DNA of 41,519 nt from Acidobacteriota bacterium (GTDB lineage: Bacteria > Acidobacteriota > Polarisedimenticolia > J045): assembly GCA_003696075.1 (NCBI GenBank), contig RFHH01000054.1, positions 1-41,519 of the forward strand. Reading direction: 5' to 3'. The notes below the pieces were generated by a model, which did no database searches, was not told the origin of the DNA, and worked only from the letters and a program-made list of their open reading frames with translations. Below are positions 1 to 41,294 of this stretch, in pieces. Made by a program: the position numbers and the translations under genes. Positions within the stretch are counted from its first letter, which is position 1. The number at the start of each line of letters is the position of its first letter.

Positions 1-191
1 GCCCGGCGCCAGCGGACCTTGACCCGCGCACCGGGCAGGAGAGCGCCGCCGAACCGGCGCTGCGACCGTGCGGCTGCGGGAGCGAGGGCGACGAGCCGCT
101 CCCCGGAGGCCGCCAGCAGGTGGACGACGCGGTCCGCCTCCCCCCTGACGGTCGTTGCGAGCACGATCGCCTCCGTCTCGCCGCGGGTCAC
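1..191 (-). CDS. recO: DNA repair protein RecO, N-terminal part (cut by window edge)
   Basis: The reverse strand from GTG 191 reads on open to the window edge (63 codons). It begins VTRGETEAIVL, continues with GEADRVVHLL, and then has RSQRRFGGALLPG. This is the usual RecO opening: TEAIVL, GE(A/S)DRVV, then a basic stretch ending in (R/S)RFGGAL before the OB fold. RecO loads RecA on SSB-coated DNA together with RecR. The GTG overlaps the mgtE stop in a GTGA junction, so recO is the next gene of the phoH-to-mgtE operon. The order era...recO is widespread in bacteria, here with mgtE between them. The C-terminal part, including the zinc-finger region, lies outside the window. The call rests on N-terminal motifs and on context. 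Confidence 0.85.
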   Translation of the reverse strand, partial: MTRGETEAIVLATTVRGEADRVVHLLAASGERLVALAPAAARSQRRFGGALLPGARVKVRWRR

Positions 192-1582
192 AGCACCGCG
201 AGAAGCGTGGTCGCGAGGCCGAGGAAAATCAGCGAGCCGACCACGTCGGTCGTTGTGGTGACGAACGGGGTCGTCGAGATCGCCGGATCGATGCCCAGCC
301 GGTGGAGAGCCAGGGGCAGCAGCGACCCGACGAGCGTCGCCACGGTCATCGACATCGCCAGGGAGCTCCCGACGACGATGGCGACCGGGAGGGCCCGGTC
401 CGCCGGCAGCCCCGACAGCCAGTGGAGGGTGGCGAAGCTCCCCGCCGCGAGCAGCAGTCCGTAGACCATGCCGAGGACGGCGGCCACGCCGATCTCCCTC
501 AAGAAGGACCGGAGCAGAACGCCCTCGTGGATCCGGCCGGTGGCCAGTCCGCGGATCACCACGATCGCGGTCTGGTTCCCCGCCGAACCCCCCATCCCGA
601 GGACGATCGGGATGAAGGCCGCCAGCCCGACGACCCGCTGCAGCGTGGGCTGGAAGCCGCTGATCACGAACGATGCCAGCATCCCGCCGCAGAAGGTCGC
701 CACGAGCCACGGAGAGCGGGTTCGGACCGACTTCCAGATCGACGGCTCGATCCGCTCCTCCTCGGAGGTCCCCGCCATCCGGAAGATGTCCTCGGTTGCC
801 TCCTCGCGAAGGACGTCGATCACGTCGTCGATCGTCACCATCCCCACCAGGCGCCCCTGATCGTCCAGGACCGGGATGGCGATCAGGTCGTACTTCGCCG
901 CGATGCGCGCGACCTCCTCCTGGTCGGTGTCGGTCCGGACGGTGATGAGGTCGGTGTTCATGATCTCGGACAGTCGCGTGTCCGGAGGATGGAGGAGCAG
1001 GTCCCGCAGCGAGAGCACGCCGACGAGGTGGTTCCGCTCGTCGACGACGTAGACGTAGAACGCCATCTCGACGCTGCCCCGCGTTTGGAGCTCGCGGATC
1101 GCCTCGGAGACGGTGTAGTGCTCGGGAAGCGAGAAGACCTCCGGCGTCATGATGCGGCCGGCGGTCTCCTCTTCGAAGATCAGGAGCTGCTCGACGCCCG
1201 CCTTCTCCTCGGGGCGCATCGCCTCGAGGATCGCCTTCGCCTCCTCCTCTTCCAGCTCGGTCAACAGGTCGGCGGCATCGTCGTCCGCGCACTGCTCGAG
1301 GAGGCGCGCCGCCGGCTGCGGGCCGAGGCGGCGAAGGAGCCCCGGTCCGCTGCCCGGCGCCAGCTCGACGAGAAACGCGGCGCCGAGTTCGGGATCCCGC
1401 TCCGCGAGCGCCCGGAACAGCGCCACCTGCTCCCGCTCCGTCATCTCCTCGTAGAGGGGAGCGAAATCCTGGGGACGCGTCTTCGCCAGCAGGTTGAGCA
1501 GGTGGGCGAAGGCGCCGCGCCGGAGGAACCGGCGGACCGACTCCAGAACGAGGATCTGCCGGCGATCGAGCGGTGCGGGCAC
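188..1582 (-). CDS. mgtE: Magnesium transporter MgtE
   Basis: 464 residues, normal for MgtE. An N-terminal helical MgtE_N domain (about 25-130) is followed by a CBS pair (about 140-260, with TAGRIMTPEVF and later DDVIDVLREEATEDI) and a five-helix membrane domain (about 285-464). The membrane part carries GMGGSAGNQTAIVVIRG and TTTTDVVGSLIFLGLA, which match the pore-lining family motifs. MgtE is a Mg2+ channel in the inner membrane that is gated by Mg2+ bound to the N and CBS domains. The GTG start is supported by a GGAGAGGGGAG ribosome site just upstream. The gene lies 74 nt downstream of era and overlaps recO by 4 nt. A -10-like box and a hairpin in the gap before it suggest its own promoter. 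Mg2+ supply placed among ribosome and RNA genes may be meaningful, but that is inference. Confidence 0.95.
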   Translation of the reverse strand: MPAPLDRRQILVLESVRRFLRRGAFAHLLNLLAKTRPQDFAPLYEEMTEREQVALFRALAERDPELGAAFLVELAPGSGPGLLRRLGPQPAARLLEQCADDDAADLLTELEEEEAKAILEAMRPEEKAGVEQLLIFEEETAGRIMTPEVFSLPEHYTVSEAIRELQTRGSVEMAFYVYVVDERNHLVGVLSLRDLLLHPPDTRLSEIMNTDLITVRTDTDQEEVARIAAKYDLIAIPVLDDQGRLVGMVTIDDVIDVLREEATEDIFRMAGTSEEERIEPSIWKSVRTRSPWLVATFCGGMLASFVISGFQPTLQRVVGLAAFIPIVLGMGGSAGNQTAIVVIRGLATGRIHEGVLLRSFLREIGVAAVLGMVYGLLLAAGSFATLHWLSGLPADRALPVAIVVGSSLAMSMTVATLVGSLLPLALHRLGIDPAISTTPFVTTTTDVVGSLIFLGLATTLLAVL

Positions 1583-1586
1583 GGAA

Positions 1587-1630
1587 CTCCCCTCTCCGCC
1601 GGCGAACTCGCCGGCAAGCCGGGCATTTTA
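1587..1630 (-). promoter_or_regulatory. Candidate mgtE promoter, leader hairpin and Shine-Dalgarno site
   Basis: Read on the minus strand: TAAAAT (1625-1630) fits a -10 box, with no good -35. It is followed about 7 nt later by the inverted repeat GCCGGCG-agtt-CGCCGGC (1598-1615), then by the purine-rich ribosome site (1587-1597) and GTG at 1582. The hairpin would sit at the very 5' end of a leader of about 36 nt and abuts the ribosome site. The same layout recurs at 8545-8605 and 26751-26790. Confidence 0.4.
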
Positions 1631-7258: not shown

Positions 7259-7269
<11 letters not shown>

Positions 7270-8539
7270 CGCCACCGTCCTTTCGGGTTCCGAGCAGCTT
7301 CGCGGCGAGCGCCGCCGGTTCCAGCGGCGCCTCCGTCTGCTCTCCGCTGTCGAGGTCCTTGAGGGTGACCCTCTCCCGGGCCAGCTCCTCCTCTCCGATC
7401 AGCACGGCGTAGCGGGCCCCGGAGCGGCCGGCGCGCTTCATCTGTCCGCCGAGCCCGTGGCCCGAGGTGTCCCACAGCACCGCCAGCCCGCGAGCGCGGA
7501 GCGACTGGACGTACCGGAAGGCACGGCGGCGCGCTTCCTCTCCCAGCGTCACCAGGTAGACGTCCGGGCGGCGGGCCGCCTCCTCCGAGTCGGCGCCGGC
7601 GGCGAGCAACAGGCGTTCGATCCCGGCGGCCCACCCGAGTCCCGGGACGTCGGGCCCGCCGAGCGCCGCGACGAGTCCGTCGTAGCGGCCGCCGCCGAGG
7701 ACGGCGTTCTGGGCCCCGAGCGCCGCGCTCCTGATCTCGAATGCGGTGCGAACGTAGTAGTCGAGACCGCGAACCAGCCGTGGATCGACGAGCGGTTCGA
7801 CACCGACCTGGCCGAGCGCGTCGACGACGGCCTCGAAGTGCCGGCGGCACGGTTCGCACAGGTGATCGAGCGCCCGCGGAAGGCCGTCGAGCGCCGCCTG
7901 GCAGCTCTCGTTCTTGCAGTCGAGCACGCGCAACGGATTCCTGTTCATCCGGTCGCGACAGTCCCGGCACAGCGCCGGGGCGCGTGCCTCGAGCGCCTCC
8001 AGCAGCGCGGCCCGGTAGCGCGGACGGCAGTCCCGGTCGCCGAGGCTGTTGACGTGGAGGCGGAACTCGCCGACGCCCGCCTGCCGCACGAACTCCGTCG
8101 CGAGCACGATCGCCTCGGCGTCGGCCTCCGGGGCGGGCTCGCCGAAAACCTCGATGCCCACCTGGTGGAACTGCCGGAGCCGCCCCTTCTGCGGCCGTTC
8201 CCGGCGGAAGGCCGGTCCGAGATAGTAAAGGCGTGTCAGGCCGCGCCGGTCCAGCCCGTGCTCGATGAACGCCCGGCAGACCGAGGCGGTGATTTCGGGC
8301 CTGAGGGAGACGCTCTCATCTCCCGCGAGGAAGGTGAACATCTCCTTTCCGACGATGTCGGTCGCCTCCCCCACCGAGCGGACGAAGAGCTCGGTCCGCT
8401 CGAGGTGCGGCGGGCGGATCTCCCGGAAACCGTACCGGTGCATCAGGCGGTGCACCCCCTGCTCGAGGCGCTGCCAGCGCTCCGTCTGGCCCGGAAGGAT
8501 GTCGTGGAACCCGCGCAGGCTCTGCAGTCGTCTGCCCAC
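7259..8539 (-). CDS. hisS: Histidine--tRNA ligase
   Basis: 426 residues, the usual HisRS length. It opens with LRGFHDILPGQ and has the motif 2 segment FRRERPQKGRLRQFHQ. The HisRS-specific LVRGLDYYVRTAFEI and GGGRYDGL follow, then the C-terminal anticodon-binding domain ending in GGQMKRAGRSGARYAVLIG. A Cys-rich segment (CRDCRDRMNRNPLRVLDC) is common in this family. The frame is open far upstream, but GTG 8539 has an ideal GGAGGC site 6 nt ahead and yields the family start. The gene leads the hisS-aspS pair. Its short leader begins with a perfect 9-bp hairpin. Confidence 0.96.
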
Positions 8540-8544
8540 GAGAC

Positions 8545-8605
8545 GCCTCCGCCCGCCGGGGTCCGGCGGGCGGGCCATTCTGCCACGCCTCCCTTCCGGG
8601 GTCAG
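8545..8605 (-). promoter_or_regulatory. hisS promoter, 5' hairpin and Shine-Dalgarno site
   Basis: On the minus strand CTGACC (8600-8605), a 17-nt gap and CAGAAT (8577-8582) form a plausible promoter with 4 of 6 matches in each box. The predicted start is near 8570. The inverted repeat GCCCGCCGG-acc-CCGGCGGGC (8551-8571) begins there and ends directly against the GGAGGC ribosome site (8545-8550). The leader would be about 31 nt, with a very stable 5'-terminal stem-loop. Confidence 0.5.
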
Positions 8606-15764: not shown

Positions 15765-15794
15765 TCTCCCTCCGCGGGGCCTCCCGTGCCCCGC
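15765..15794 (-). promoter_or_regulatory. hppA leader hairpin abutting Shine-Dalgarno site
   Basis: The inverted repeat GCGGGGC-acgggag-GCCCCGC on the minus strand (arms 15788-15794 and 15774-15780) ends directly against the GGAGGGAGA ribosome site (15765-15773). I see no good -10 box upstream. It resembles the leader hairpins of hisS and mgtE. Confidence 0.35.
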
Positions 15795-26750: not shown

Positions 26751-26790
26751 GATAATCGCGCGCCGGCGCCGCGCGGCGCCGGGGAGGAGC
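26751..26790 (+). promoter_or_regulatory. Promoter box, perfect palindrome and Shine-Dalgarno site of the LOG gene
   Basis: GATAAT (26751-26756) is a good -10 box, with a weak -35. Its predicted start falls where a perfect 20-nt palindrome begins (26763-26782, ccggcgccgcgcggcgccgg). The ribosome site GGGGAGGAG (26781-26789) follows at once and the ATG is at 26792. The leader is about 30 nt, almost all of it hairpin plus ribosome site. Confidence 0.5.
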
Positions 26791-26791
26791 G

Positions 26792-27331
26792 ATGGGGTCA
26801 CCGGAGCGGGGCATCGCCGTCTTCGGCGGCGTCGAGGCGGAACCCGGTGACGCCGCCTACGAGCTGGCCCGCCGGGTGGGGTGCCTCGTCGCCGAGCGCG
26901 GTCTGCCGGTCGTGACCGGCGGTTACGGCGGCGTGATGGAGGCCGCCAGCCGAGGGGCCCGCGAGGCCGGGGGGGAGGCGGTGGGGGTGACCTGCGCGGC
27001 GTTCCGCGGGCGGACGCCGAATCCCTACCTCACTCTCGAGATCGAGGAGCCGACGCTTTCGGCGAGGACCGAGCGGCTGGTCGCCCTCTCGCGCGGGTTC
27101 GTGGTGCTCGCGGGTCGCGCCGGGACCCTCGCCGAACTCGCCTACCTGTGGGCCGCGTTGCGGGCCGGCGTGATCGCCGCGCCGGTGGCGATCCTGGACG
27201 ACGCCTGGTCCGCCCTGTACCGTGAGCTGGTCCGCTCCGGGCGCCTCGACGAGCGCCCGCGCCGGGCGACGCGGGTCGCCCGGGACGCCGACGAGGCGGT
27301 GGCGATCGCCTCGGGCGGAGGATCGGGATGA
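26792..27331 (+). CDS. LOG/SLOG-family protein (nucleotide-binding, possible phosphoribohydrolase)
   Basis: 179 residues, Rossmann-like. It has IAVFGGVEAEPGD at the start, the signature VTGGYGGVMEAASRGA (42-57) and the second motif LAGRAGTLAELAYLWAAL. In LOG enzymes (cytokinin-type 5'-monophosphate phosphoribohydrolases, often misnamed lysine decarboxylase) these read GGGxxGLM and PGGxGTxxE. Here the second is changed to GRAGTLAE, as in the TIGR00725 branch, so activity is uncertain. It starts a plus-strand operon, and its stop overlaps lepB (ATGA). Confidence 0.82.
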   Translation: MGSPERGIAVFGGVEAEPGDAAYELARRVGCLVAERGLPVVTGGYGGVMEAASRGAREAGGEAVGVTCAAFRGRTPNPYLTLEIEEPTLSARTERLVALSRGFVVLAGRAGTLAELAYLWAALRAGVIAAPVAILDDAWSALYRELVRSGRLDERPRRATRVARDADEAVAIASGGGSG

Positions 27332-35708: not shown

Positions 35709-35778
35709 TAGATTCGCTCCGTCGGCGCGTCGCCCGGCCGCCCGCGGGGGGAGGGCCGGTCGCGCGACCGGAAGGGGA
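35709..35778 (+). promoter_or_regulatory. pilT upstream region: -10 box, perfect palindrome, ribosome site
   Basis: TAGATT (35709-35714) may be a -10 box. A perfect 16-nt palindrome, ccggtcgcgcgaccgg (35756-35771), leads directly into the ribosome site GGAAGGGGA (35770-35778) before GTG 35786. It could be a leader stem or an operator. Confidence 0.4.
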
Positions 35779-41256: not shown

Positions 41257-41294
41257 CCCGGCCGGCCCTCCGGCCGGGCCTTCGGGGCATTCTA
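41257..41294 (-). promoter_or_regulatory. Candidate STAS-gene promoter and 5' hairpin
   Basis: On the minus strand TAGAAT (41289-41294) is a good -10 box. The perfect 9-bp inverted repeat CCCGGCCGG-aggg-CCGGCCGGG (41257-41278) begins a few nt after the predicted start near 41282. The leader to ATG 41225 is about 57 nt. The -35 is not convincing. Confidence 0.45.

Follow-up and report, generated by a model that had tools for sequence, protein, structure and literature searches.

Stem-loops at the very 5' ends of bacterial mRNAs, such as those of Escherichia coli ompA, papA and bla fusions and of the Bacillus subtilis aprE leader, can stabilise transcripts without conservation of the stem sequence, and in both organisms, according to reviews (PMC3997798, PMC7509114), hairpins at the 5' end hold back RppH and make mRNA more stable. 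Hairpins also occur in structured standby sites (E. coli thrS and synthetic leaders, PMC3936740), where they lie upstream of the 16S-binding site and exclude it, and GC-rich palindromes are found between genes as repetitive extragenic palindromic (REP) and other interspersed palindromic repeats. Here we examine a compact 5' leader first noticed in a 41,519-nt contig of an Acidobacteriota bacterium (assembly GCA_003696075.1, contig RFHH01000054.1; this whole stretch is called the window below). In this cassette, found at the LOG, hisS and mgtE genes among others, a -10-like box is followed by a GC-rich hairpin that extends from the predicted transcription start (+1) to the Shine-Dalgarno (SD) site.

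The cassette resembles each of these systems and departs from each. In contrast to the stem-loop stabilisers, its stem fills nearly the whole leader and abuts the SD, and the arrangement is found at many genes within a single genome. Unlike structured standby sites, it offers hardly any single-stranded flank, distal or proximal, as a platform for the 30S subunit, a layout for which the E. coli model predicts poor translation. Unlike REP sequences, its stems have no common sequence, and their location follows gene starts and the SD, not 3' regions. The element is of a known kind, unusual here in its compactness and recurrence, and it is its function that we infer.

Stem excess and placement in promoter-bearing leaders

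The source genome spans 3.29 Mb in 231 contigs, the window being one of them, and is 98.6% complete. Genome-wide counts were made on a sample of ~1.17 Mb of it (about a third, window included), in which a codon-periodic Markov model, combined with an SD-aware choice of starts, yielded 957 genes; these are our own calls rather than a published annotation. We scored perfect stems of at least 7 bp with loops of 3-8 nt in 463 promoter-bearing leaders, each with an upstream gap of at least 60 nt.

The sequence-only reading of the window had proposed that such stems recur as part of a cassette, and when leaders are compared with their dinucleotide shuffles, the stems are indeed both more frequent and better placed. 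Perfect 7-bp stems were found at positions -45 to -1 in 59 of the 463 leaders, against 20.9-21.7 (+/- 4) in the shuffles, and in 56 of 448 leaders (20.2 +/- 3.8 expected) once the window was excluded. The excess persists in divergent and co-directional genes taken separately. Further upstream there is none (27 stems at -90 to -46 and 22 at -135 to -91, against ~21 in shuffles), and leaders inside operons carry 15 stems where 12 are expected (n=350). The change from balanced to G-rich composition at the SD could itself be a source of stems, and shuffling of entire leaders erases it; we therefore introduced a stricter "chimera" null, in which 5' halves are joined to 3' halves of other GC-matched leaders and position-specific composition is kept. 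Under this null the leader excess is 2.06-fold (136 vs 66 +/- 11.7, z 6.0), while elsewhere in the same genome the ratio is 1.1 (upstream) and 1.02 (operon leaders). The fall from ~2.7-fold to 2.1-fold means that composition explains part of the first excess, but not the twofold remainder. The stem excess is a real, modest and leader-specific regularity of the source genome.

What recurs is not a sequence. Comparison of 69 stems revealed nothing common to them; they differ from gene to gene, and therefore represent neither a repeat family nor a single operator. A repeat or mobile palindrome family was rejected on this ground. When the LOG leader was searched against the genome, its sole other match was a GC-rich stretch of 31 nt at 90% on contig C116. 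We also came across a 13-bp perfect palindrome, AGTATTCTTGACA-TTT-TGTCAAGAATACT, which overlaps the start region at locus L082 (upstream of 3065, minus strand); it is AT-rich, unlike the GC stems, and is probably an operator.

The hairpins are positioned with respect to both the SD and the predicted +1. Counted from the SD, their 3' ends are enriched two- to threefold at -15 to +1 and fall off past that site, so that the hairpins lie upstream of the 16S-binding site and exclude it, with the exception of a two-base overlap at hisS. For the 5' side we used a -10 matrix derived from the same leaders (T/G-A-T/G-A-A-T-like), which gives the predicted +1 and matches 227 of the 463 leaders, against 76 in shuffles. 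Where the predicted +1 lies 14-35 nt from the SD, a stem stands near both ends in 14 of 56 leaders, compared with 5.6 +/- 1.9 expected. Among SD-abutting stems with a -10 box (n=43), 16 begin at most 4 nt from the predicted +1, against 8.9 when the -10 distances are permuted (p 0.009). These counts support in part, and for predicted starts, the proposal that the stem spans the distance from +1 to the ribosome site. The window's STAS gene departs from it: its hairpin lies close to the predicted +1, yet 31 nt separate it from the start codon, so it is not against the SD. The 16 cassette genes include LOG, mgtE and those for FtsH, a RidA-family protein, RpiB, a Crp-like regulator, an aminotransferase and an RNase R-like protein, and have no common function. 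At the RNase R-like (RNB) gene (L039:5420-7645, minus strand), which has a compact hairpin leader, autoregulation of a decay enzyme is possible. The -10-like hexamers also show another peak at -15 to -11 from start codons (24-26 leaders genome-wide), the signature of leaderless mRNAs.

We reasoned that G-U pairs are useless to a DNA palindrome, and that the A-C mismatch, which is the mirror case on the other strand, can serve as their control. Under the shuffle null, stems with one G-U pair at -55 to -14 are strongly enriched (55 vs 24.4, z 6.4), whereas those with one A-C mismatch are not (33 vs 26, z 1.6). The chimera null gives z 3.7 and z 0.8, respectively, and the pooled genomes other than the source give z 3.8 and z 0.3 under the shuffle null; for these outside sets the asymmetry is not clear under the chimera null. 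Folding energies of the sense and antisense strands do not differ, and it is therefore the G-U/A-C count that carries the strand asymmetry. Because G-U is enriched and A-C is not, RNA, rather than a DNA palindrome, appears to be under selection. This statistical, rather than biochemical, evidence points to a hairpin that acts as RNA.

Hairpin leaders of the window and their relatives

Table 1. Promoter, leader and gene features of the window (coordinates are positions in the window)
Feature	Position	Strand	Basis
-10-like hexamer of LOG gene, GATAAT	26751..26756	+	read from sequence
LOG leader hairpin, 20-nt perfect palindrome CCGGCGCCGCGCGGCGCCGG, 8 bp, GCGC loop	26763..26782	+	read, folded
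LOG SD, GGAGGAG, adjoins 3' end of hairpin	26783..26789	+	read from sequence
LOG / SLOG-family protein, ATG 26792	26792..27331	+	PF18306, PF03641
hisS extended -10 TGGCAGAAT, hexamer CAGAAT	8577..8582	-	read; kept in most family relatives
hisS leader hairpin, 11 bp, loop ACC	8549..8573	-	read, folded
hisS, histidine--tRNA ligase, GTG 8539	7259..8539	-	TIGR00442 above cut-off
mgtE -10-like hexamer, TAAAAT	1625..1630	-	read from sequence
mgtE leader hairpin, 7 bp, followed directly by GGAGAGGGGAG	1598..1615	-	read, folded
mgtE	188..1582	-	PF01769, CBS, MgtE_N
STAS / anti-sigma antagonist gene hairpin, 9 bp, after TAGAAT (41294-41289)	41257..41278	-	read, folded
hppA (H+-pyrophosphatase, start 15760) hairpin, 7 bp, abuts SD	15774..15794	-	read
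pilT-family palindromic stem, 6 bp, upstream of AAGGGG site; weak, start codon uncertain	35756..35771	+	read

The three leaders from which the cassette was described are listed in Table 1. On direct reading, those of LOG and mgtE are exactly as the sequence-only reading had given them, with -10 box, stem and SD; at LOG the hairpin starts 7 nt past the -10 box, at the predicted +1. At hisS the -10 box, hairpin and SD are likewise present, but the 9-bp stem that had been placed at 8551-8571 is in fact longer, and its last two bases overlap GGAGG. Single-stranded flanks in the window cassettes measure ~0-3 nt. Six further stems had been named as related. The hppA stem fits well, and those of pilT and rpsF exist (6 bp in each); the STAS stem is strong but distant from the SD, and the stems of greA (loop of at least 16 nt) and of the SPOR-like gene (5 bp) are weak. 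Folded singly against dinucleotide shuffles, the hairpins give z -1.3 (LOG), -2.1 (hisS), -1.6 (mgtE) and -2.7 (STAS). Taken one at a time, the LOG, hisS and mgtE hairpins are unremarkable at 73% GC.

The window has no Rfam match at gathering scores among riboswitch, leader and thermometer models, and a terminator scan around LOG found no GC stem with a T run; the leader stems instead have the SD behind them. The best named relatives of the LOG protein come from metagenome-assembled genomes labelled Acidobacteria, with identity up to 68%, which makes the host an uncultured acidobacterium. The order and strand of mgtE, hisS, hppA and the STAS gene are shared between the window (188-41225) and a family relative (G004:C23 226954-273973), forming a conserved block.

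Among family relatives, an AATAAT/ATAAT-like element recurs upstream of the LOG gene in several; the stem is mostly lost, though one (L146) carries a CCGCCC...GGGCGG stem. The extended -10 of hisS, TGGCA(G/C)AAT, is kept in most (window 8570-8590, minus strand; loci L264-L269), while the leader behind it has fully diverged; several of these relatives have hairpins at the same place with a different sequence. When stems are counted from 6 bp, the orthologue is also stemmed for 7 of 22 stem-bearing genes, compared with 1 of 21 stemless ones (p 0.027). A stem excess, not clearly confined to the leader, is likewise seen in three relatives from the family and in several further bacteria of high GC. 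Because the source genome has the most GC-rich upstream regions among the genomes compared, and the samples from the others were smaller, the excess may be either a lineage trait or a high-GC trend. Our literature search, in which several queries were too crowded to inform and subscription journals were excluded, did not find the cassette reported in Acidobacteriota.

Explanations for the leader hairpins

We tentatively favour the explanation, by analogy with the E. coli and Bacillus precedents and at somewhat short of an even chance, that these are selected 5'-leader hairpins most likely guarding the mRNA 5' end from RNases. Transcription would start ~7 nt past the -10 box; from there, a stretch of 20-25 nt at the head of the mRNA would fold into a GC-rich hairpin ending at or just before the SD. 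Such a hairpin would leave the 5' end almost or entirely unexposed and so would probably hinder 5'-end-dependent decay, whether by pyrophosphate removal followed by RNase E/G or by RNase J acting from the 5' end; the SD lies outside the stem, so ribosomes could still load. The transcript starts, the protection from decay and any net effect on expression are all putative here. The source genome encodes RNase E/G (above cut-off), an RNase J-like protein (2e-97, below the MG423 cut-off) and two RNase Y homologues (G000:C198:15724-17256 and G000:C91:16258-17709), of which one passes the family cut-off and the other falls just short of it. Since decay in E. coli and B. subtilis is slowed by 5'-terminal stems, which obstruct RppH and 5'-end-dependent nucleases (PMC3997798, PMC7509114), and the RNases named above are encoded here, 5'-end protection is our leading explanation.

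Several observations weigh against it. The cassette is confined to a minority of leaders. Several family relatives retain the -10-like box of LOG but lack its hairpin, the leaders of the hisS relatives do not fold significantly better than shuffles (Fisher p 0.26), and with 7-bp stems there are 0 orthologous pairs in which both members have one. In leaders longer than 35 nt the 5' end is not clearly preferred, in a comparison without the power to separate anchoring at the 5' end from anchoring at the SD. Finally, a stem too near the SD reduced stability in B. subtilis, according to work cited in one of the reviews (PMC7509114).

The main rival, which we consider possible though doubtful, is that the hairpin tunes translation: with almost no single-stranded flank beside the SD, it would limit standby binding of the 30S subunit and set a low or controlled rate of initiation, RNA stability being secondary. 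That the stems halt at the SD edge fits this explanation. So does the published standby-site relation, As = 15 + P + D - H (PMC3936740): before unfolding, its fitted penalty comes to ~10 kcal/mol at LOG, 6 at mgtE and 13 at hisS. With penalties of ~6-13 kcal/mol, the window leaders are predicted to be poorly translated in E. coli. That model was fitted in E. coli, however, and the cassette genes include housekeeping hisS, ftsH and the RNase R-like gene, which are not obviously low-expressed; SD accessibility by folding, moreover, equals that of shuffled leaders. The same measure bears on a related idea, that the leader folds on itself and thus cannot pair with the SD, insulating the ribosome-binding site. 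Local folding does exceed shuffles at -46 to -14 and falls below them across the start codon, but the predicted SD-to-start accessibility for 41 stem leaders is 0.433 with the real leader, 0.434 with a shuffled one and 0.430 with none. Equal accessibility lends no support to insulation or to a simple role in opening the ribosome-binding site; insulation is disfavoured on this account and strikes us as very improbable.

Two further explanations would deny the hairpins a role as RNA. A C-rich stretch followed by a G-rich SD region could fold by chance at 73% GC, and in keeping with this, single stems are not significant, the excess shrinks once positional composition is kept, and relatives, like other high-GC bacteria, also show a ~twofold stem excess upstream of their genes. 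The chimera-null z of 6, with ratios of ~1 upstream and in operons, and the asymmetry between G-U and A-C make such an artefact improbable. The stems might instead be DNA-level palindromes, serving as operators or as promoter-proximal sites for proteins and found downstream of the -10 box by coincidence. The perfect 20-nt palindrome at LOG would suit such a site, and some leaders hold other palindromes, such as the AT-rich one at L082; yet the 69 stems are without a common sequence, their G-U pairs are enriched and their A-C mismatches are not, and their placement ends at the SD, so we give this explanation little chance. As for 5'-end protection and translation tuning, the two may act together.

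A wider proposal, which we regard as rather unlikely, is that high-GC Acidobacteriota follow a leader design on the scale of the genome, a single hairpin from +1 to SD making up the whole 5' untranslated region, with selection on its shape alone and stem sequences freely replaced, so that a single 20-25-nt module would set both mRNA lifetime and initiation. If 5'-end protection is the correct explanation, then in very GC-rich bacteria whose leaders are short, a meaningful share of promoters would have a protective hairpin built directly into the 20-25 nt from +1 to SD. This would conflict with the rules derived from E. coli, by which a tight SD-adjacent hairpin is bad for translation or stability, and would allow the reach of those rules to be tested directly. 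It would also make transcript starts in uncultured GC-rich genomes cheaply predictable from sequence alone.
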